Shown here: positions 2,803-49,319 of the stretch, in pieces
How the letters are laid out: each line of letters opens with the position of its first letter
Position numbering within the stretch: position 1 is the stretch's first letter
Source: Rhodothermales bacterium
GTDB lineage: Bacteria; Bacteroidota; Rhodothermia; Rhodothermales; Bin80
Assembly (NCBI GenBank): GCA_951812585.1
Contig: OX638318.1
Coordinates: 710,819 to 774,818 of the forward strand
DNA: 64,000 nucleotides
Direction of reading: 5' to 3'
Translations under genes and position numbers: made by a program
Notes under the pieces: model-generated
What the model was told of the DNA's origin: nothing
Databases searched by the model: none
The model's input: only the letters and a program-made list of their open reading frames with translations

Positions 2803-3783
2803 TTAGGTAGTGTGTTTGGGCTTGTTGATCCATACTGCTCTTGGCGGCATCGGTATGCGTGGTCTGCCACGCAAGAAGCGTTCCGGATGTTGTGCGTAGG
2901 CCGCGTCCATGACTTGCTGACGGGCAGCTCTGACGGCTTCGGTATGGCCGTAGGGCACAGTCAGGGGATGCATGAGCCCAAGGTCGGAGTGGTAGAACAT
3001 CTCGTTGTACCATGCGAAGAACCATCGGGCCCATTGCTGGGCATCCTCCAGAGATCCGAACCGCCTCGGGTACAGGTGAGGATACTGGGCGGTACGGAAT
3101 AGGGCCTCCGAGTACGGGTTATCGTTCGACTGGTACGGTCGCGCATAGGAACGCGTGACGCCCAGCAGCCCCAACAACTGGATGTAGGTCCGGGCGGTCA
3201 TGGGCGCGCCCCGGTCCGTGTGGACCGGGGGTGGGTCGGCTGTGACCCCTTGGCACTCGCAGGTGGTCACGACCAGATCGGCTGCCAGATCAGCCGTCTC
3301 GTACGGGGACACCATCCAGCCCACCACGTACCGACTGAAGATGTCTACGATCACGTAGCACTTGTAGGAGGCCCCTTTTCGGGGACCGCGCAGCGTGGTG
3401 ATGTCCATGGACCAGACCTGGTTGGGGGCCGTGGCCACCCGCTCCGGCCTGGTGTAGGGCGGGTGTACCCGCTGGTTACGGCGCTCTCGTACCGCGCGGC
3501 TTTCTTTCAGGATACGATACAGCGTGCGCCAGTGACACCCATAGGGGCCTTCATCTAGCAGCGTAGCCCCTATCTGCCGGGGCGGCAGATCCATGAACCG
3601 CTCCGAACACAACCGGGCCAGCATCTGTGTGCGCCACGCGTCACCGATGGCGAGCCGGCCCTTTGGCCGCTTCCTTGGCTTGCGTGGCCCTGGAGGCAAT
3701 CATTGGTGCCCGGTGCTACGGGAGATCTCCATGTAGCGGCACGCGGCAGTCATATCCATGGCCTTGGTGAGTTCCTCCAGCAT
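2803..3783 (-). pseudogene. IS3-family transposase OrfB (copy 2), interrupted by an in-frame stop
   Basis: DDE integrase-type transposase with WSMDITTLRGP, HTDRGAPM and YSEALF at the expected places. Its N-terminal part (MLEELTKAMDMTAACRYMEI) is in the same frame but is separated from the rest by a TGA at 3700-3702, shortly after ISRST, where copies 1 and 3 have the YY pair of this region. The enzyme would be truncated after about 27 residues, or after the OrfA fusion. I therefore call it a pseudogene. A sequencing error is possible but there is no sign of a frameshift. Confidence 0.8.
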
Positions 3784-4192
3784 AATCAACCTGGTTGCCC
3801 GGGCTCGTCGGGGATCTCGAGCCCAAGCAGTCCAGAGACTTTTTTTTTTGAACCTCAATGACCGTCCGGGCCTGCTTGAGCTCATGACGCGTACGCGCAA
3901 GCGTCTTGCGCACCGCACGCAGCTCCTTTCTCAGCGCGTGCACCTTGTCGGCGGACTGCGTTCCAGCCTCCGGACTGTCGAGCTGTTGGCGCCACTTGGA
4001 CAGCTGAGACGAGTAAAGGCCTTCCCGGCGCAACAGCGCGCCAATCTCTCCGGGTATCTGACAAGTGTCCGCTTCGCGGACGATGCGCTGCTTATAGGCC
4101 TTGGTGAATCTGCGGCGCTTTGCCCGCGGTACGACCTCCGTGGATGGAACCTGCGATGGTGCCGCACGGCTCTCATGAAGCGTTGAATCCAT
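3716..4192 (-). CDS. IS3-family transposase OrfA (copy 2)
   Basis: DNA-binding subunit of the second IS3-type element. It has a helix-turn-helix in RAKRRRFTKAYKQRIVREA and GALLRREGLYSSQLSKWRQQ, followed by a basic coiled coil. A run of ten T residues (3840-3849, poly-A on the coding strand) lies at the VIEVQKKK position, the same slippage site as in copies 1 and 3. The ATG at 4192 matches the start of copy 1. The frame runs on past the slip site to 3716. OrfB is broken, so this OrfA is probably a relic that could only act as a repressor or be inert. Confidence 0.75.
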   Translation of the reverse strand: MDSTLHESRAAPSQVPSTEVVPRAKRRRFTKAYKQRIVREADTCQIPGEIGALLRREGLYSSQLSKWRQQLDSPEAGTQSADKVHALRKELRAVRKTLARTRHELKQARTVIEVQKKKSLDCLGSRSPTSPGNQVDYAGGTHQGHGYDCRVPLHGDLP

Positions 4193-4254
4193 GGCGTTTA
4201 CCGATCTACGTGACAAAAAGACCGCCCACAACAATAACGACCAGAAGACCGCCA

Positions 4255-4277
4255 TTGCACCCTAAATTAGGGTGCAA
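4255..4277. repeat. Perfect 11-bp-arm palindrome inside IS3 copy 2, upstream of OrfA
   Basis: The arms TTGCACCCTAA and TTAGGGTGCAA flank a single A. It lies between the terminal repeat and the OrfA start, where the element's promoter should be. It could be an operator or a cruciform-forming site of the element. No equivalent was seen in copies 1 and 3. Confidence 0.5.
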
Positions 4278-5262: not shown

Positions 5263-6387
5263 TCACATGTCCACCGAATACACCACAACCGTGGGGACCA
5301 CCGGGACGGGATCAAATACGGATGTGGATTCAATGGATCCGTAAGCACGGCCAGACCGGATGACCCTCAGCGAAAGTTTCGCCGGCAGTTCTGTCCGGCC
5401 CACCGTCTTCCCGGCGGAGTCCAGAATCATCCACTCTACGGTTGGGTTTCCCCGATCTATACCCTTGACCCAAATCTGATCCCTGTCGTCGACCCTGAAC
5501 GACCTGTACGCCGGCTTCACTTTGTGTATGGACCCAAACTGATCGGGGTTTACTATTGCATCCAACTCTACGCTCGTAACAGGTATGGGCGCATGGAGTT
5601 GCTGGATGGATCCCACGATATCTCCATCCACCGAGGTAATCGTGATATCAATGTTCTCGTTCCATCCGGAGTACAGTTTTCCACTCGGACTTAAGCGAAT
5701 AATCGACCTGCGACCGAAGGGAACGTAGCGTAGCGCAGGAGTCCTTTCCGGTGACATGAAGAGCAGCAGCTCCCGATCAGGCAAGCGTGCCAAGGTCCGC
5801 ACCATCGTGCCAGTCCAACTCGTCTGCACGACAGCCACAAAGAGATCTGCGTCTATATTCTCGGCAGTGATATCGGGTCTATGCAGGGTAATGGGACCCA
5901 AGTCCGTGATCCCAATGACGTTAGAGGTATTGCCAACGGAGTCGTTTTCCACGACTTTGATGCGACGTTGGAACAACCAGGTTTCTGGAGCGAAAACCGA
6001 GAGTACGTCCTGACGGGAATCAAATACGTAGATCGAGTCATTGCGGCCGACGAGCACGTTCGAAATATCTCTGAACTCGCCAGGGGCGGCGCCACGACTG
6101 CCAAATGTTCCTAACAGGACGCCTCCCGCGGAAAATACCGAGATGTCCATGGAAGACTCGTCGCCAACGAAGAGTTGGCCGGCGGCATTGACAGCCAAGC
6201 CATCAATGCCGCCGAACACAACGGTGTCTCCATCTGCTTCATCTCCTATGCGGACGATCTCGGAGAGAACTATCTGAGAATCGCTTTCCCTGTCGGGGCT
6301 CGCTTCACGACCATCCCTCTGGCAAGCCACCAAGGATAAGCATAACATCAAGAGCACCGCAGGCCTTAGGACATGATCGGTGTACAT
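5263..6387 (-). CDS. Six-bladed beta-propeller lipoprotein
   Basis: Predicted exported lipoprotein: basic-polar N-terminus, hydrophobic core and lipobox SLVAC at residues 18-22. Repeated blade motifs follow, such as GLAVNAAGQLFVGD, FGSRGAAPGEF and NDSIYVFDSRQDVLSVF, typical of the NHL-like six-bladed propeller proteins common in Bacteroidota-type genomes. I chose ATG 6387 because it starts directly at the signal peptide. An open frame extends further upstream through a run of 11 G residues. The preceding gene on the same strand (6416-6871) encodes a Cys-rich secreted protein, and the two may be co-transcribed. Function unknown; ligand or peptide binding is a guess. A second, broken family member is at 9395-10472. 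Confidence 0.8.
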   Translation of the reverse strand: MYTDHVLRPAVLLMLCLSLVACQRDGREASPDRESDSQIVLSEIVRIGDEADGDTVVFGGIDGLAVNAAGQLFVGDESSMDISVFSAGGVLLGTFGSRGAAPGEFRDISNVLVGRNDSIYVFDSRQDVLSVFAPETWLFQRRIKVVENDSVGNTSNVIGITDLGPITLHRPDITAENIDADLFVAVVQTSWTGTMVRTLARLPDRELLLFMSPERTPALRYVPFGRRSIIRLSPSGKLYSGWNENIDITITSVDGDIVGSIQQLHAPIPVTSVELDAIVNPDQFGSIHKVKPAYRSFRVDDRDQIWVKGIDRGNPTVEWMILDSAGKTVGRTELPAKLSLRVIRSGRAYGSIESTSVFDPVPVVPTVVVYSVDM

Positions 6388-6393
6388 GTATTG

Positions 6394-6404
6394 CCCCCCC
6401 CCCC
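6394..6404 (-). promoter_or_regulatory. Run of 11 G residues (coding strand) six bases upstream of the propeller start codon
   Basis: On the minus strand the sequence is G11, then CAATAC, then ATG. It occupies the place of a ribosome-binding site. Homopolymeric G tracts of this length are slippage-prone in other bacteria and can switch expression. Whether that happens here is inference; tract length may also be misread. Confidence 0.45.
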
Positions 6405-6415
6405 TAGCTAGGAGC

Positions 6416-6871
6416 TTAAGAGTCGTCGTCGCTGGGCCGTACCATTTTGCAATCTGGGCAGCCACCTAAACGCCGACAGTAAATCTGATTGGATTCTAGG
6501 TCGAGCACCTCAGTACAGTACCCGCTGCTTTCACTGTCTGTGCATTTGCAGTCCACTTCGTCTTCCGTTGTATTCCACAGAAAAGACGCTAACGGTCCGG
6601 ATGTACCTATCATAGCGATGGGGTCTTCATAGAGAACCGGCGGCACACCTTGCTCGTCAAAATCAAGGAAATAATGAGGTGGTAGGGTTACCAACAAGGA
6701 ACCCTCTTTGCGGACGACCTGCGTTCCTTCGGGTAACTGGAGCTTAGGCCCACAGGCCACGCCCTCCGCAATCTGATCAGAAAGAACGGGGTCAGGAGAT
6801 ACGACCTGAGCCATTGCATCCGTGTAGGCCGACCCGAAGATCATCACCATAAGGAACGCCGAGACGAACAC
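6416..6871 (-). CDS. Small secreted Cys-rich protein of unknown function
   Basis: About 150 residues. The N-terminal hydrophobic stretch (FVSAFLMVMIFGSAYTDAMA) ending in AMAQ looks like a cleavable signal peptide. The last third is Cys-rich: DCKCTD, GYCTEV, YCRRLGGCPDCKMV. No ATG is available; GTG 6871 is taken, and the frame remains open upstream with TRRTSLSL, so the true start may be earlier. It precedes a six-bladed propeller lipoprotein gene by about 30 bp. This recalls the Bacteroidota NVEALA-type small Cys-rich proteins that also neighbour six-bladed propellers, although no NVEALA motif is visible. The function is not known to me. Confidence 0.6.
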   Translation of the reverse strand: MFVSAFLMVMIFGSAYTDAMAQVVSPDPVLSDQIAEGVACGPKLQLPEGTQVVRKEGSLLVTLPPHYFLDFDEQGVPPVLYEDPIAMIGTSGPLASFLWNTTEDEVDCKCTDSESSGYCTEVLDLESNQIYCRRLGGCPDCKMVRPSDDDS

Positions 6872-43041: not shown

Positions 43042-45438
43042 ATGGCAGGTGCTATTGGCCAGATTCTCATCCTGACGGCCTTTGTCAGCGCGGTCCTTAG
43101 CGGGCTCGCGTTCTTCTGGTCGCAAAAGCATCACGATCCCATCCACTACGCGCGCTTCGGGCGCGTCTTGTGGGGCGTGATGACCGGATGCCTCTTCGTC
43201 GCGTGGTTGCTGCTGATCGCGCTCATAGCCACGCACCAGTTCCAGTACAACTATGTCTGGGCGCATTCCTCCCGCGACTTGCCCTTCTACTTCCTGTTCT
43301 CCGCGTCCTGGGAGGGTCAGGAAGGCTCTTTTCTGCTTTGGATCATTCTGAACAGCCTGGTGGGCCTCACGCTGATCCGCTGGGCGGACCCGCGCTTCAC
43401 AGCACCCGTCATGGCCGTGGTCGCCTTCTGCCAGGTGTTCCTTTTATCCATGATTGTTGGGCTCAAGTTCGGGCCTTTGGAGATCGGGGCTGCGCCCTTC
43501 GCCACGCTGGCCGAGGCCAACCCCGAGGCACCCATCTTTCAGAGCGATCCGGACTTTGTGCCGCTGGACGGGACCGGCCTCAACGATCTCTTGCAGAACT
43601 ACTGGATGGTGATTCATCCACCCATGCTGTTTGTGGGGTTTTCGACGCTGGTGGTCCCTTTTGCTTTCGCCATCGCCGCCCTGTGGCAGCGGCAGTACAC
43701 GCAGTGGGTGCGACCGGCACTGCCTTGGACGCTTGTGTCTGTGATGTGCCTGGGTATCGGCGTCGCCATGGGCGGCTACTGGGCCTACGAAACCCTTTCA
43801 TTTGGCGGCTTCTGGGCTTGGGATCCGGTTGAAAACTCGTCCTTCGTACCCTGGATCGTAGGCGTTGCTGCCATCCATCTGATGCTGATCCAGCGCAAAG
43901 GCGGCGTAGGCCACAAAGCGGCGCTCTTTTTGTGCATCCTGACCTACATGCTGGTGGTCTACTCCACCTTCTTGACGCGCAGCGGCATCCTCGGCGAGGC
44001 TTCTGTTCATGCGTTCGTGGACCTGGGTCTTTATAATCAACTGCTGATCTGGATCTTGGCCATGGGCATCCTGGGATTTGGCCTATTTGCGTACCGCTAC
44101 AAGGAGCTGCCGGGCCCTGTCCGCCAGGCTAACTACTTCTCGCGTGAGTTCATGGTGCTCTGCGGCTCCGTGATTCTTTGCGTGATTGCGGCAGTGGTCA
44201 TCCTGGGCACCAGCGCCCCGATTTTTGGACGGATCTTTCGCGATAACCCGGCGACGGTGCCGATTGCGTTCTACAACGACTGGACGCTGCCGCTCTCGGT
44301 CGGCCTGGTTTTTCTGGCCGGGCTCGGACAGCTGTTATGGTGGACGAAGATGCGGATCGCCAGCATCAACCGTACGCTCATGGTGCCCGTAGGGCTGGCT
44401 GTACTCAGCACGACCCTGGTGCTGCTGTTCACGCCGTTCGCCAACGATTCTGTGGCGATCGGAAACGGCTTCTGGGATCGTTACGGGTTCGGAATTCAGC
44501 TCCTCCTGTTGCTCTTTGTCGCTTTCTTTGCCCTCTACGGCAACCTCGCGGTCCTGTTGCGCATTGCCCGGGGCAACATCAGGCTCGCCGGCGGCGCCAT
44601 CGCGCATGTGGGACTGGGCATCGCTGTCCTGGGCATCATTGCATCGGCTGGTTTCAGCAATGCTATCTCCAACGCGCCGCCGCAATCTGATCGTGACAAT
44701 TTCGTCTTGGAGCGCAACAGGCCCCAGAATGTCGAAGGCTACCGCGTGGAATACATCGGCACGGAGCCGGGCGTGCGCGGTCATACCCGGTTCGTGCTTG
44801 ATTTCACCGATCCGCGCGGCCACAACTTCACGCTCAAACCCGTCGCGTACAAATCCAGCACCGGGCAGTGGATTCAGCACCCTGACCTGAAGCTGTATGT
44901 GGAAAAGGACATATTCGTAGCGGTCTCCCCACGCGACATGGTGGATCCCGATGGCGGCAACGAAGTCACGCTGGTTCGCGGCGACAGCGTGCTTCTGGAT
45001 GATGGCCGGGTCAGCCTGCGCTTCGAAGCATTTGATACCGCCGTGGACCTGGAATCTCTCGTAGGGTCGGAGGAAGCGGCCCGCACGGAAATTGCGGTGG
45101 GTGCCCTCCTGCAGGCCCGAAACCTGGACACCGGCAGCGTAGAGCGGTTGCGCCCCATCTATGCGATCCGCACCGACCGAACGGTCCGAACACTGCCCGC
45201 CCACGGCCAGGCGCTGACGGTTTACTTTACCAGCATGGATGTAACCAGCGGCGCGATCAAGCTGTCGCTGGAAGGCCTCAGCGGCCCAGACTATGTCGTG
45301 GTTCAAGCGTACGAAAAGCCTGCGATCAGTCTGGTATGGATCGGACTGATCTTGCTGAGCGGCGGCTTTCTGCTGTCGGTAATGCGCCGCGCGTCTGAAG
45401 CGGGCTTTCTGCGTCGGCGCGCTAGTCGCGAACAATAG
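43042..45438 (+). CDS. ccmF: Cytochrome c-type biogenesis protein CcmF (haem lyase subunit)
   Basis: Large membrane protein of system I cytochrome c maturation. About 14-15 membrane segments. SWEGQEGSFLLWIILNSLVG and the WWD-type motif GGFWAWDPVENSSFVPWIV (haem handling) are visible, as are QNYWMVIHPPMLFVGFSTLVVPFAFA and VYSTFLTRSGILGEASVHAF. A soluble extracytoplasmic domain (about residues 545-760) lies before the last helix. 799 residues, a little longer than proteobacterial CcmF. No other ccm genes are in the window. Its 3' end overlaps the convergent ABC permease gene by 17 bp. Confidence 0.92.
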   Translation: MAGAIGQILILTAFVSAVLSGLAFFWSQKHHDPIHYARFGRVLWGVMTGCLFVAWLLLIALIATHQFQYNYVWAHSSRDLPFYFLFSASWEGQEGSFLLWIILNSLVGLTLIRWADPRFTAPVMAVVAFCQVFLLSMIVGLKFGPLEIGAAPFATLAEANPEAPIFQSDPDFVPLDGTGLNDLLQNYWMVIHPPMLFVGFSTLVVPFAFAIAALWQRQYTQWVRPALPWTLVSVMCLGIGVAMGGYWAYETLSFGGFWAWDPVENSSFVPWIVGVAAIHLMLIQRKGGVGHKAALFLCILTYMLVVYSTFLTRSGILGEASVHAFVDLGLYNQLLIWILAMGILGFGLFAYRYKELPGPVRQANYFSREFMVLCGSVILCVIAAVVILGTSAPIFGRIFRDNPATVPIAFYNDWTLPLSVGLVFLAGLGQLLWWTKMRIASINRTLMVPVGLAVLSTTLVLLFTPFANDSVAIGNGFWDRYGFGIQLLLLLFVAFFALYGNLAVLLRIARGNIRLAGGAIAHVGLGIAVLGIIASAGFSNAISNAPPQSDRDNFVLERNRPQNVEGYRVEYIGTEPGVRGHTRFVLDFTDPRGHNFTLKPVAYKSSTGQWIQHPDLKLYVEKDIFVAVSPRDMVDPDGGNEVTLVRGDSVLLDDGRVSLRFEAFDTAVDLESLVGSEEAARTEIAVGALLQARNLDTGSVERLRPIYAIRTDRTVRTLPAHGQALTVYFTSMDVTSGAIKLSLEGLSGPDYVVVQAYEKPAISLVWIGLILLSGGFLLSVMRRASEAGFLRRRASREQ

Positions 45439-46534
45439 CCTCACGCGCGAGATGCCGCCCGGCGGCGGTCAGCACCAGTTGGCTGCTTTCCAGGTTGACC
45501 AGCCCCGCCTGTCTTGCCTGGCGAACGACCTCGCCGGCAAAGCCGGAATCCCAGCGCAAGTGATCCTGCAGGTGATCCACATGGCATTCCTCGAAGGCGT
45601 CCGGCCGATGTTCGTGCTGCGCCAGATGTATCGTCAGCATCTTCAGTGCAAATTGCCAGCGCTGGTGCGCGCGCCTGCGGTGTGCGGCCACCAGGCCCCG
45701 GGCCGGGGCAAACAGGAAGGCAACTAGAAACGCGACCCCCACAGCTACCGCCATCGATCCAGCGATAGAGACATCCAGCGCATGCGCGAACCAGTACCCG
45801 CTGACAGCGCTCGCGATGCCCAGCACGATGGCAATCAGGATCATGCGATCCAGACGATCAGTCAGCAGGTGCGCCGCCGCGGGCGGTCCCACCATGAGCG
45901 CTACGACCAGGATGGATCCCACGGCATCAAACGCCGCCACAGCGGTTACCGAGACCAAGGCCATCAGCGCGTAGTGCATCAGCATTGGCATGAACCCCAG
46001 CGTTGCGGCCAGCGCCGCATCAAAGGTGGCCAGCTTGAGCTCTTTATAGAATAGAAAGACAAAGAGCGCCGAGAGCACACCTACCATGCTCATGGAGTAG
46101 AGCGCTTGTGGACCAAGATCGTATCCAAACGCAATCCATCGATCAAAGGGCACCAGCGCCAGCTCCCCAAGGAGCACGGCGTCCGTGTCGAGATGCACAT
46201 CCCCAGCGTACCGTGCAATGAGGATTACACCGACCGAAAAAAACGCGGGAAACGCCAAGCCTATGGCCGCATCTTCACGCACCAGGTGCGTGCGCCGGAG
46301 TAGTTCAACCAGGGCCACGGTGCCTACGCCGACGGCGGCACCTCCTGCCAAAAGGAGCGGCGACGACAAGCTTTCCGTCACAAAAAAGGCCAATACGAGC
46401 CCAGGCAAGATTGCATGGCTGATGGCATCGCTCATCATCGCCATGTTGCGCAGAACCAGAAAGCACCCTGGCAGGGCGCATGCGCCAGCCACAATCACTG
46501 CAACCAGTTGTATCTCCAGCTGAAAGGATGTCAT
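45422..46534 (-). CDS. Metal ABC transporter permease (TroD/MntD/ZnuB type) with DtxR-like C-terminal domain
   Basis: ABC-3 family inner-membrane channel for Mn, Zn or Fe. About eight membrane helices; MMSDAISHAILPGLVLAF and FDAVGSILVVALMVGPPAAAHLL are the family signatures. After about residue 285 a soluble tail follows (ALKMLTIHLAQHEH, ECHVDHLQDHL, RQARQAGLVNLESSQLVLTAAGRHLAREA). Its order and final LTAAG motif resemble the winged helix of DtxR/MntR-type regulators. Such fusions occur in some Bacteroidota-type genomes. Starts within the stop of the other permease (ATGA). 370 residues. Confidence 0.85.
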   Translation of the reverse strand: MTSFQLEIQLVAVIVAGACALPGCFLVLRNMAMMSDAISHAILPGLVLAFFVTESLSSPLLLAGGAAVGVGTVALVELLRRTHLVREDAAIGLAFPAFFSVGVILIARYAGDVHLDTDAVLLGELALVPFDRWIAFGYDLGPQALYSMSMVGVLSALFVFLFYKELKLATFDAALAATLGFMPMLMHYALMALVSVTAVAAFDAVGSILVVALMVGPPAAAHLLTDRLDRMILIAIVLGIASAVSGYWFAHALDVSIAGSMAVAVGVAFLVAFLFAPARGLVAAHRRRAHQRWQFALKMLTIHLAQHEHRPDAFEECHVDHLQDHLRWDSGFAGEVVRQARQAGLVNLESSQLVLTAAGRHLAREAIVRD

Positions 46535-47640
46535 GACCGATCACGGTGCAGCTGCGCGCAAGCCGCAATACCTTTGGACGTTAGCGCCCATTGCTGTTTG
46601 CCGGCTTGCCTTACTAGTCCTTGAGCTGCCAGTGTCTTAAGCTGCGACCGCAGTTTGCCCCCCCCCGGCTGCATGGCTTGGAGCGCAGCCTCGGCGTGGG
46701 GATGGTCACGCCTGTGGTGCTGCAGGGCCAGCTGATACAGATCCATGAGGATTGCTTCGCGCTGAAAGCGCGTGCTCCTGAGCTGGTGGCGTATGGCGCG
46801 CACAATCAGGCCTCTGCCTGGCGCAAAGAGTATCGACACCACCACAACGCCGCTGATGCAAAGTACGATGGTAGGACCCGTCGGCAGGCGCGCGGTGCTG
46901 GTGCTTATCACTGCACCGGCCACGCCCGAGATTATGCCAAAGCCCATCGCGATCAGCACCATGCGTCCGAGTCTGTTGGTCCACTGCCGTGCTGCCGCGG
47001 CTGGGGCAACAATCATGGCACTCATCAGCACCACTCCAACCGTCTGCAAGCCGGTCACAATCGCGATTACCAGGAGCGTCGTCAGGATGAAATCCAAAGG
47101 CCGCATCGGCAGTCCCAAGCTTCGCCCGAAGTCTTCGTCGAAAGCCAGGACCTTGAACTCCTTCCAGAGCAGTGCAGCAACTAGCAGTGCGACCCCACCC
47201 AGCGCGGACATGGTTGCAAGGTCTCGTTCCACCAGCGCTGCTGCCTGTCCGAACAGGAAGGCCTCCAGGCCCGCCTGTTGTGCATTGGGCATCTTCTGTA
47301 TCGCGGTCAGGATCACCAGTCCCGCCCCGAAGAATACTGACAACACCAAGCCCAACGCGCTGTCGTATTTGACGCGTGACGCACCCGTTATCACTATGAC
47401 CAGCGCCGTGGCCAGCCAGCCGGCGAGCGCTGCGCCGACCATGAGCACAAGCGGAAGCTTGCTGCCCGTAACCAGAAAAGCCAGTCCGATGCCCGGCAGG
47501 GCGGCATGTGAGATGGCATCCCCCAGGAGGCTTTGCCTTCGCAGGACCGCAAAGGTGCCCAGTGCGCCGCTGACCGCTCCCAGCAGGGCGGCACCAAGTG
47601 CAACCGTCCGCAGCGTATAGTCAGTAAAGAGCTGCTCCAT
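46531..47640 (-). CDS. Metal ABC transporter permease (TroC/MntC type) with winged-helix-like tail
   Basis: Second ABC-3 permease of the importer. LLGDAISHAALPGIGLAFLV and GVVLMSAMIVAPAAAARQW are signatures. Like its partner it has a soluble C-terminal tail (AILMDLYQLALQHHRRDHPHAE, LRSQLKTLAAQGLVRQ, WALTSKGIAACAQLHRDR), again winged-helix-like. A run of nine G residues on the coding strand (46658-46666) encodes the Gly tract before the helix-turn-helix; slippage there would truncate only the tail. I chose ATG 47640 because the upstream extension is not conserved. It starts two bases after the ATPase stop and overlaps the next permease by four bases. Confidence 0.87.
   Translation of the reverse strand: MEQLFTDYTLRTVALGAALLGAVSGALGTFAVLRRQSLLGDAISHAALPGIGLAFLVTGSKLPLVLMVGAALAGWLATALVIVITGASRVKYDSALGLVLSVFFGAGLVILTAIQKMPNAQQAGLEAFLFGQAAALVERDLATMSALGGVALLVAALLWKEFKVLAFDEDFGRSLGLPMRPLDFILTTLLVIAIVTGLQTVGVVLMSAMIVAPAAAARQWTNRLGRMVLIAMGFGIISGVAGAVISTSTARLPTGPTIVLCISGVVVVSILFAPGRGLIVRAIRHQLRSTRFQREAILMDLYQLALQHHRRDHPHAEAALQAMQPGGGKLRSQLKTLAAQGLVRQAGKQQWALTSKGIAACAQLHRDRS
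46658..46666 (-). repeat. Run of nine G residues inside the permease coding sequence
   Basis: Encodes part of PGGGK just before the C-terminal winged-helix-like region. Homopolymer runs of this type are slippage-prone; no other evidence of variation can be seen in one sequence. Confidence 0.5.
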
Positions 47641-47644
47641 ACGA

Positions 47645-48373
47645 CTAACGCTCGAGGAATGCGACGCGCCCGCCATAGGTAAGGCCCAGATTCTCCTGGG
47701 TGAACACCGCAGGCACCGGCCCGCAGGCAATGCGCCTGACGTTAAGCAGCAAGACTTCATCGAAGTAGTCCGGAACCGTCTGAAGGTCGTGATGGACGGC
47801 GACAACGGTCTTGCCACCTAAGCGCAAATCTCTCAGCAGCGCAATGATGGCCCGCTCCGTGGTGGCATCCACCCCTTGGAACGGCTCGTCCATGAGGTAC
47901 ACGGTGGCGTCCTGCACCAGTGCCCGGGCCAGAAACACGCGTTGCTGCTGCCCCCCGGAAAGCTGGCTGATCTGGCGGTGCGCTAAGTGGCGTATGCCGG
48001 CCATTTCCAGTGCTTCCATGGCTTGTGCACGTTCGGTGCGCCCCGGGCGGCGGATCCATCCCAGCCGGCCATACAGACCCATCAGCACAACGTCCAGGAC
48101 ATTGGCTGGAAAGTCCCAGTCCACGCTTCCGCGCTGGGGCACATAGCCTACGATGGATTTGATGCTCGCGTAGGGTTTGCCAAAGATGTGCACATGCCCG
48201 GCCGACGGCGTGACCAAGTTCAGAATGGCCTTGATCAGCGTCGTCTTGCCCGCCCCGTTGGGGCCGACAATCGCCATCAGCACGCCGTTCGGCACAGAAA
48301 GATCAACGTCCCACAGTACTGGACGGTCGCGGTAGGCAACCGTCAAGTCACGCACTTCAATGGCCGCCAGCAT
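47645..48373 (-). CDS. Metal ABC transporter ATP-binding protein (TroB/MntB/ZnuC type)
   Basis: Energises metal uptake from the cytoplasmic side. Walker [11 protein letters not shown]-loop [16 protein letters not shown] signature QLSGGQQQR, Walker [14 protein letters not shown] and the switch His in VAVHHD are all present. [12 protein letters not shown] is typical of manganese/iron-chelate importers of this family. 242 residues. Its first codons overlap the end of the binding-protein gene by 17 bp and the permease starts a few bases after its stop, so the four genes form one operon. Confidence 0.92.
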
Positions 48374-49319
48374 TCGTCAGAGCCTCCACAATCGTGTCCG
48401 TATTGTAGCGCAACATGCCCAGATATGTGCCGCTCGGCGTGCCGGGCGCATCGAGTGCATCCCCAAATAGCGTGCCCCCTATGACCACCTCAAACCCACG
48501 TGCGCGGACTGCTTCCCGCACAGCAGCAATGCCGCGCGGGGATACGGATGACTCGATGAAGATGGCGGGGATGCGGCGTTCCGCCACCATGCGCGCAACG
48601 CGCTGCACATCCGCGGTGCCTGCTTCCGTGGCCGTACTGATACCCTGGAGTCCTACAACCTCAAATCCGTATGCGTCGCCGTAGTACCCAAACGCATCGT
48701 GAGACGTTACGATAACGCGCTGCGCCGGCGCGACACGTCGAACCGCCTGCTGCGCGTAGGCATGCACGGTATCCAGCGCTGCTCCAAACGAATTCCCTTG
48801 CGCGACGAACAGGTCTGCGTGGCCCGGCGCCATTGCGCTCAGGCGCTGCGCAACGACATGAGCAGCCCGTTTCCAAAGTATAGCATCCAGCCATATGTGC
48901 GGATCATAGTTGCCTTGAAAGAGCGCAGACTCCCTCAGCAGCGTGTCCGGTATGCCTTCGGCTACCGCCAGCGTCGCAATGCCGCGGGCCTGCATCTCCG
49001 CAAACACGTCCGCCATCTTGCCTTCCAGGTGGAGGCCGTTGTACATGATGATGTCTGCCTCCGCCATAGTAGCCACATCGCGCGCGCTGGCCTTGAAGAG
49101 GTGCGGATCCACGCCCGGCCCCATCAACCCTTCCACGGACACGAGGGTGCCCCCAACCATGCGGGCTAGATCTGCCACTACCGTCGTGGTGGCCACCACG
49201 CGGATTGAACGGTCGGAAAAGTCACGCTCCTGTGAGCCGGAGCCTACCTTCGCGCAAGCCGCAAGCCCGGCGAATACAAAGCACAGCACCAGGCGCCGCA
49301 GCAAGTCGGTTGCATCCAC
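48357..49319 (-). CDS. Metal ABC transporter substrate-binding lipoprotein (TroA/ZnuA/MntA type)
   Basis: Captures Mn, Zn or Fe outside the inner membrane. The signal has lipobox AGLAAC. The ligand positions are visible: His in VDPHLFKAS, His in YDPHIWLDA, Glu in IFIESSV and Asp in FGDALDAPG, the H-H-E-D set typical of the Mn/Zn cluster A-I proteins. There is no His-rich loop, which disfavours a classical ZnuA. The start is GTG 49319 with no clear ribosome-binding site. 320 residues, first gene of the importer operon. The metal cannot be fixed from sequence; manganese is my first choice. Confidence 0.88.

Follow-up and report, generated by a model that had tools for sequence, protein, structure and literature searches.

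The stretch of DNA analysed here, called the window in the following, comprises 64,000 nucleotides of a Rhodothermales bacterium (GenBank assembly GCA_951812585.1, contig OX638318.1, positions 710,819 to 774,818 of the forward strand), the genome of which is a single 3.2-Mb contig. On its minus strand it contains a complete metal importer operon of the TroABCD/MntABC/ZnuABC type, i.e., an ATP-binding cassette (ABC) transporter with ABC-3 permeases. Both permeases are extended by C-terminal tails, and these tails are the subject of the analysis. The gene order is binding protein, ATPase, permease 1, and permease 2; neighboring genes overlap or abut at their ends, and the two permease genes overlap by ATGA. 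The features are:

48357..49319, minus strand: substrate-binding protein of the ZnuA/TroA/MntC superfamily (Pfam ZnuA, E = 2.8e-71)
47645..48373, minus strand: ABC ATPase of 242 amino acids (Pfam ABC_tran, residues 22-165, E = 6.7e-30)
46531..47640, minus strand: permease 1 of 369 amino acids, ABC-3 domain (residues 8-272, E = 1.2e-66) and C-terminal tail
45422..46534, minus strand: permease 2 of 370 amino acids, ABC-3 domain (residues 7-275, E = 4.6e-47) and C-terminal tail
46534..46806, minus strand: tail A, residues 279-369 of permease 1, a basic juxtamembrane stretch followed by a winged helix (288-369), from alignments, AlphaFold2, conservation, and a profile match
45425..45700, minus strand: tail B, residues 279-370 of permease 2, a basic juxtamembrane stretch followed by a winged helix (290-370), from alignments, AlphaFold2, Foldseek, and conservation
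46658..46666, minus strand: run of nine G (C9 on the plus strand) in tail A, codons 325-328, in a PGGG loop ahead of the recognition helix, from the sequence

Both tails are about 80 residues long and start at about residue 279, after the ABC-3 domain has ended (residue 272 in permease 1, residue 275 in permease 2). This confirms a preliminary description of the DNA, which had reported soluble C-terminal tails with particular motifs on both permeases. Homologues were collected, and those that did not differ within their last 200 residues were treated as one. Short tails were found on 58 permease-1 and 73 permease-2 proteins among the collected loci, and a permease 1 match was present in 34 of 39 genomes (the own genome and related ones). 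H308, H315, and W351 of tail A were invariant in all 58 proteins. In tail B the invariant residues were H303, H307, and W328 (73 of 73), and E316 was present in 72; H303 and H307 lie on the first helix, separated by three residues. In comparison with five relatives, the identity was 0.37-0.73 in the tails versus 0.70-0.86 in the membrane part. In the tails, the ratio of nonsynonymous to synonymous substitutions (dN/dS) stayed below 0.5 in all comparisons that allowed dS to be calculated, with dS near saturation. These values indicate that the tails are under purifying selection. Because of this selection and of the 58 and 73 homologues with invariant residues, the tails are regarded as genuine and as no chance extension of the reading frames. 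No further copy of either tail was detected in the own genome (next matches at E 0.48 and 0.46).

Profiles were needed to reveal the kinship of the tails, because Pfam scans with the single sequences of the window tails yielded only weak matches to generic winged-helix and unrelated families. Pfam Fe_dep_repress was listed neither for the whole window permeases (E up to 1) nor for the window tails alone, and for other tails it was not among the families listed either (for the tail A alignment A1, the best 25 of 38). The alignments comprised 30 of 33 tails A (A1) and 34 of 39 tails B (A2), and two broader alignments (A5 and A6) took 42 of 58 and 51 of 73. The profile search that the preliminary description had proposed placed both tails nearest to the DtxR/MntR family. 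With A2, all 17 PDB chains at E<=0.1 were DtxR/IdeR (best E 0.011), and with A1, three of the four chains at E<=0.02 belonged to the DtxR family, with ScaR being aligned over nearly the entire domain of tail A. The broader alignment improved the match of tail A (DR2539, E 0.0034).

Profile-profile comparisons pointed in the same direction. They were controlled with 40 column-shuffled decoys, and every score given here was more than twice that of the best decoy. Tail A matched the winged helix of DtxR domains that are fused to permeases in related operons at 97% (score 57.6 versus 14.6 for the best shuffled decoy) and stand-alone DtxRs at 89%. Tail B matched stand-alone DtxRs at 88% (35.3 versus 13.5) and the fused winged helices at 83%. 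The two tails matched each other at 84%, and because of this a common origin of both is likely, but not settled. AlphaFold2, run with shallow alignments of 5 and 10 rows, predicted the helix order of a winged helix and a two-stranded wing for both tails, with a mean predicted local distance difference test score of 83 (tail A) and 91 (tail B). In a Foldseek search of the PDB with tail B, DtxR/MntR/IdeR chains accounted for 38 of the 50 highest-ranking rows, and VIA-align superimposed tail B on E. coli MntR (2h09) with a Z-score of 12.4 and 1.6 Å over 78 residues, MarR-type chains coming within 1-2 Z units of it. The fold and the DtxR kinship are thus well supported: tail B is a DtxR-like winged helix by fold and profile, and tail A by profile and its fused relatives. 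The claim of DtxR-like winged-helix tails on both permeases was borne out by profile, fold, and homology.

The tails correspond to only one half of a DtxR. The SVT-type motif is responsible for DNA reading in DtxR/MntR, and the motifs HRLxE and HxxxExxEH contain the metal ligands. The SVT-type motif was found in 27 of 33 stand-alone DtxRs, in none of the 19 full domains fused to permeases, and in neither the 58 tails A nor the 73 tails B. The ligand motifs were present in all 33 stand-alone DtxRs and all 19 fused full domains, whereas each of the two sets of short tails contained no more than a single stray match. The short tails have no DtxR metal-binding and dimerisation domain; Pfam reported Fe_dep_repr_C for neither window permease, and both proteins end before that domain. 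At the positions of the tail A histidines, the fused domains had no histidine, and the stand-alone DtxRs had one in a single row of 25, at one column. The genome does contain one intact DtxR (Pfam Fe_dep_repress, Fe_dep_repr_C, and FeoA), which lies outside the window, about 27 kb from the operon.

The arrangement of the tails was compared in 86 permease pairs. Only permeases that scored 100 bits or more against one of the queries, P0001 or P0002, entered this set, and ordinary tail-less ABC-3 permeases, of which the searches returned many, are thus outside this number. Three layouts, given here as permease 1/permease 2, and no other combination were found: full DtxR/none in 14 pairs, short/short in 58, including the window operon, and none/short in 14. 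The none/short pairs came from the loci L035-L039 (five) or from a search of the phylum of a Thermoflexus genome (nine). Relatives of the same phylum as the window have a permease 1 of about 430-490 amino acids with a complete DtxR-type domain and a bare permease 2. In these fused proteins Fe_dep_repr_C scored far above the Pfam cut-off in four of four scanned, and Fe_dep_repress was listed in none of the four. Among the 67 permease-pair loci with a length of 7 kb or more, 31 also encoded a stand-alone DtxR; the share was 13 of 14 for full-fusion loci, 16 of 41 for loci with two tails, and 2 of 12 for those with a single tail.

In a tree of permease 1 a starred branch (99) separated the full-DtxR forms from the forms with a short tail or none. 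The tree was built with a quick method, with the Shimodaira-Hasegawa-like approximate likelihood ratio test (SH-aLRT) as the only support and a midpoint root, and L025, L047, and L100-L102 were left out. Presumably the short tails are truncated descendants of a complete fused DtxR, but the tree has no firm root, so that this direction is an inference. In the loci L129-L144, from the phylum of Thermoflexus, permease 2 was 59-63% identical to that of the window, and this degree of identity in a different phylum suggests that the tailed operon was moved by horizontal transfer.

Further arrangements were noticed in two groups of loci. In L100 (4744-6237), L101 (4630-6123), and L102 (4741-6288; all strand coordinates), single ABC-3 permeases of about 500 amino acids carry a DtxR-type domain and an extra C-terminal part, which is possibly FeoA-like; the C-termini are longer, with 217-220 residues, and these loci yielded no second permease. 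In two relatives of the same order, L042 (4163-6457) and L043 (4529-6706), an open reading frame (ORF) of more than 700 amino acids, unlike either permease, splits the operon between permeases 1 and 2.

Several known systems share features with the window operon. Chlamydia YtgC is described as a permease that carries an entire DtxR domain of 139 residues, including the metal-coordinating ones, and that is cleaved to give a DNA-binding repressor (PMC7755916, PMC6504234, PMC5599777). A review lists permease-repressor fusions from 11 phyla and takes the fused part as a releasable repressor (PMC5599777). YtgCR (operon ytgABCD) and the window permeases have in common a DtxR-derived C-terminus on an ABC-3 metal permease in a TroABCD-type operon. 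However, no complete DtxR is fused to one permease in the window operon; instead, both permeases have short winged helices without the metal domain and the DNA-reading motif. The fully fused relatives (e.g., L042, L086, L090, and L092) share the homologous permease 1 and the winged helix, in which the tail A profile matches so well, but they retained Fe_dep_repr_C with the ligands and have no tail on permease 2. DtxR, MntR, IdeR, and ScaR have an N-terminal winged helix, the nearest to the tails by profile and, for tail B, by fold, whereas the window tails are attached to the membrane and have neither domain 2 nor the metal ligands nor the SVT motif.

A different kind of comparison is offered by MetNI and ModBC, in which a cytoplasmic C-terminal domain on the ATPase stops the ABC importer when the substrate is plentiful (PMC10710835). 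A cytoplasmic C-terminal add-on that senses the substrate and stops transport may serve as a working model for the tails, by analogy. In contrast to the window, the regulatory domain of MetNI and ModBC has another fold and resides on the ATPase, while the additions in the window are on the permeases. The window ATPase has only 242 amino acids, and no separate C-terminal or regulatory domain was found among the best 25 of 34 Pfam families. No description of the double-tail layout was found in the literature searched, and this version of the permease-DtxR fusion is apparently undescribed.

The reading that we favor, with about an even chance of being correct, is that the tails are exapted DtxR winged helices which act as cytoplasmic, metal-responsive regulators of transport, and not as transcription factors. 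They would derive from the DNA-binding part of a metalloregulator of the DtxR/MntR type that became joined to the permeases of an ABC importer for Mn, Zn, or Fe, and they would have ceased to act as a repressor. Basic flanks mark the cytoplasmic side of membrane proteins (positive-inside rule). The juxtamembrane stretch that connects the last helix to the winged helix is highly basic, with means of +4.7 and +5.1, and the tails are therefore probably located on the cytoplasmic face beside the ATPases, one on each permease. There they would most likely tune transport to the cytoplasmic metal level, which would amount to feedback inhibition. The fused DtxR-type domains kept the metal ligands but lost the DNA-reading motif, and this points to a sensor acting on its own fused permease. 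In the lineage of the window the former metal domain has disappeared, and both winged helices carry fixed histidines. H303 and H307 together with E316 in tail B, and H308 and H315 in tail A, might be ligands or part of a structural switch. The metal-sensing gate on transport that the preliminary description had considered is possible and fits the invariant histidines, although the gate function itself is inferred. Because 14 pairs have tail B only, this tail may be the one that is indispensable. As a tentative but quite conceivable extension, DNA reading would have been lost after the fusion, and one widespread lineage would then have swapped the metal site of the repressor for a histidine-based site in paired winged helices, which would thereby form a metal feedback switch.

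Several results weigh against this reading. The 14 none/short pairs among the 86 indicate that a mechanism with paired tails is not general. The set of histidines differs between tails A and B, and two further histidines of tail B, H321 and H325, are not invariant (each 62 of 73). The charge of the recognition helix was +0.97 and +0.89 in the tails versus +1.24 in real DtxRs; because the tails thus resemble true DtxRs in charge, this charge is no argument against DNA binding. The DtxR kinship also has its weak points. With the broader alignment the PDB match of tail B weakened (best hit IdeR, E 0.12), and Foldseek gave no PDB match at E<=0.001 for either tail. For tail A, DtxR-family chains made up only 22 of the top 50 Foldseek rows, and the top rows of VIA-align were other winged helices (AF1382, Z 12.3, 2.3 Å over 78 residues). 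B. subtilis MntR followed with Z 11.1 and 2.1 Å over 75 residues, and AF1382 and MarR-type proteins ranked level with or above DtxR. Its fold is thus not enough to identify tail A as DtxR-like, and the link is given by the sequence profiles and the fused relatives.

Other explanations for the tails were weighed against feedback on transport. They could be passive structural or assembly modules, which pair the permeases or stabilise the ATPase dimer and do not sense metal. Winged helices are often used in protein contacts, the invariant tryptophan and the hydrophobic core account for part of the conservation, the tails evolve faster than the membrane domain, and no known metal site is left in them. 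Nevertheless, two invariant histidines in every tail are hard to ascribe to packing alone, and the ligand motifs of domain 2, retained in all full-domain relatives, point to metal sensing as the function that was kept, so that a purely passive role seems somewhat doubtful. Decay of an old permease-repressor fusion to functionless remnants would explain why tail A has lost the metal and dimerisation domain of its fused relatives and why it is missing from the 14 pairs that have tail B. This is very improbable, however, in view of invariant residues across genomes of more than one phylum, the low dN/dS, and the fact that the tails hold fixed residues that neither the fused nor the stand-alone domains have.

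Two further explanations involve gene regulation. A DNA-binding regulator that is tethered to the membrane or released by proteolysis has a precedent in the same permease family, YtgR released from Chlamydia YtgC (PMC7755916, PMC6504234, PMC5599777), and the predicted winged-helix fold of both tails would suit it. But the SVT-type motif occurs in none of the 131 short tails, these tails have neither a metal nor a dimerisation domain, and the genome encodes an intact DtxR elsewhere, so that such a regulator is unlikely. The coupling of metal status to transcription proposed in the preliminary description is likewise disfavored, because the DNA-reading motif was lost in all tails and an intact DtxR is encoded elsewhere in the genome. 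Alternatively, the tails could be a docking site for the stand-alone DtxR or another regulator, the release of which from the membrane would be coupled to transporter occupancy. In favor of this, the tails look like one of the two halves of DtxR, with which they could form a pair, and a stand-alone DtxR is encoded in 31 of the 67 loci mentioned above. The DtxR dimer interface is located in domain 2, however, which the tails do not have, and the own DtxR lies outside the operon; sequestration of this kind is thus improbable.

If feedback on transport is indeed the function of the tails, these importers hold a built-in metal feedback on their permeases, a control point that is undescribed for the family in the literature found, and it would be misleading to annotate such proteins as transcription regulators. 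Judging from the relatives, many bacteria may have a fused domain that is unable to read DNA, but of which the metal-sensing side was kept or remodelled. The double-tail, full-domain, and single-tail variants would form a natural set of constructs for testing the feedback.

The G9 run was analysed separately, because it had been described as preceding one tail and as a possible means to switch it off. It is in fact located inside tail A, before the recognition helix. A change to G8 or G10 would terminate permease 1 at 341 or 334 amino acids. Among 58 homologous tails the run was found in only 1, and by chance alone the window would be expected to contain about 0.9 runs of nine or more G or C, so that a switch is unsupported. 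Apart from the tract itself, nothing spoke for phase variation at this site.

The transported metal was not decided by the NCBIfam models, because Azt (zinc) as well as Mnt (manganese) models matched below their cut-offs. The best models were AztC and MntC for the binding protein, and MntA (Deinococcus type) and PRK15056 for the ATPase.

Three observations were made elsewhere in the window. An oligonucleotide cyclase of the CD-NTase type is encoded at 1640-2620 on the minus strand (Pfam SMODS, E = 2.9e-50; PADLOC Cyclase, E = 3.1e-100), which is possibly a defence gene of the cyclic oligonucleotide-based antiphage signalling system (CBASS) type. Two adjoining ORFs at 2803-4255 (minus strand) resemble, by eye, the transposase pair orfA/orfB, and the first of them contains a T10 run at 3840-3849 (A10 on the coding strand), possibly a slippage site for programmed frameshifting. 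Lastly, a C11 run at 6394-6404 (G11 on the minus strand) is located near the start of a beta-propeller-like ORF of 400 amino acids (5263-6465, minus strand) and could make the start or the frame of this ORF variable.

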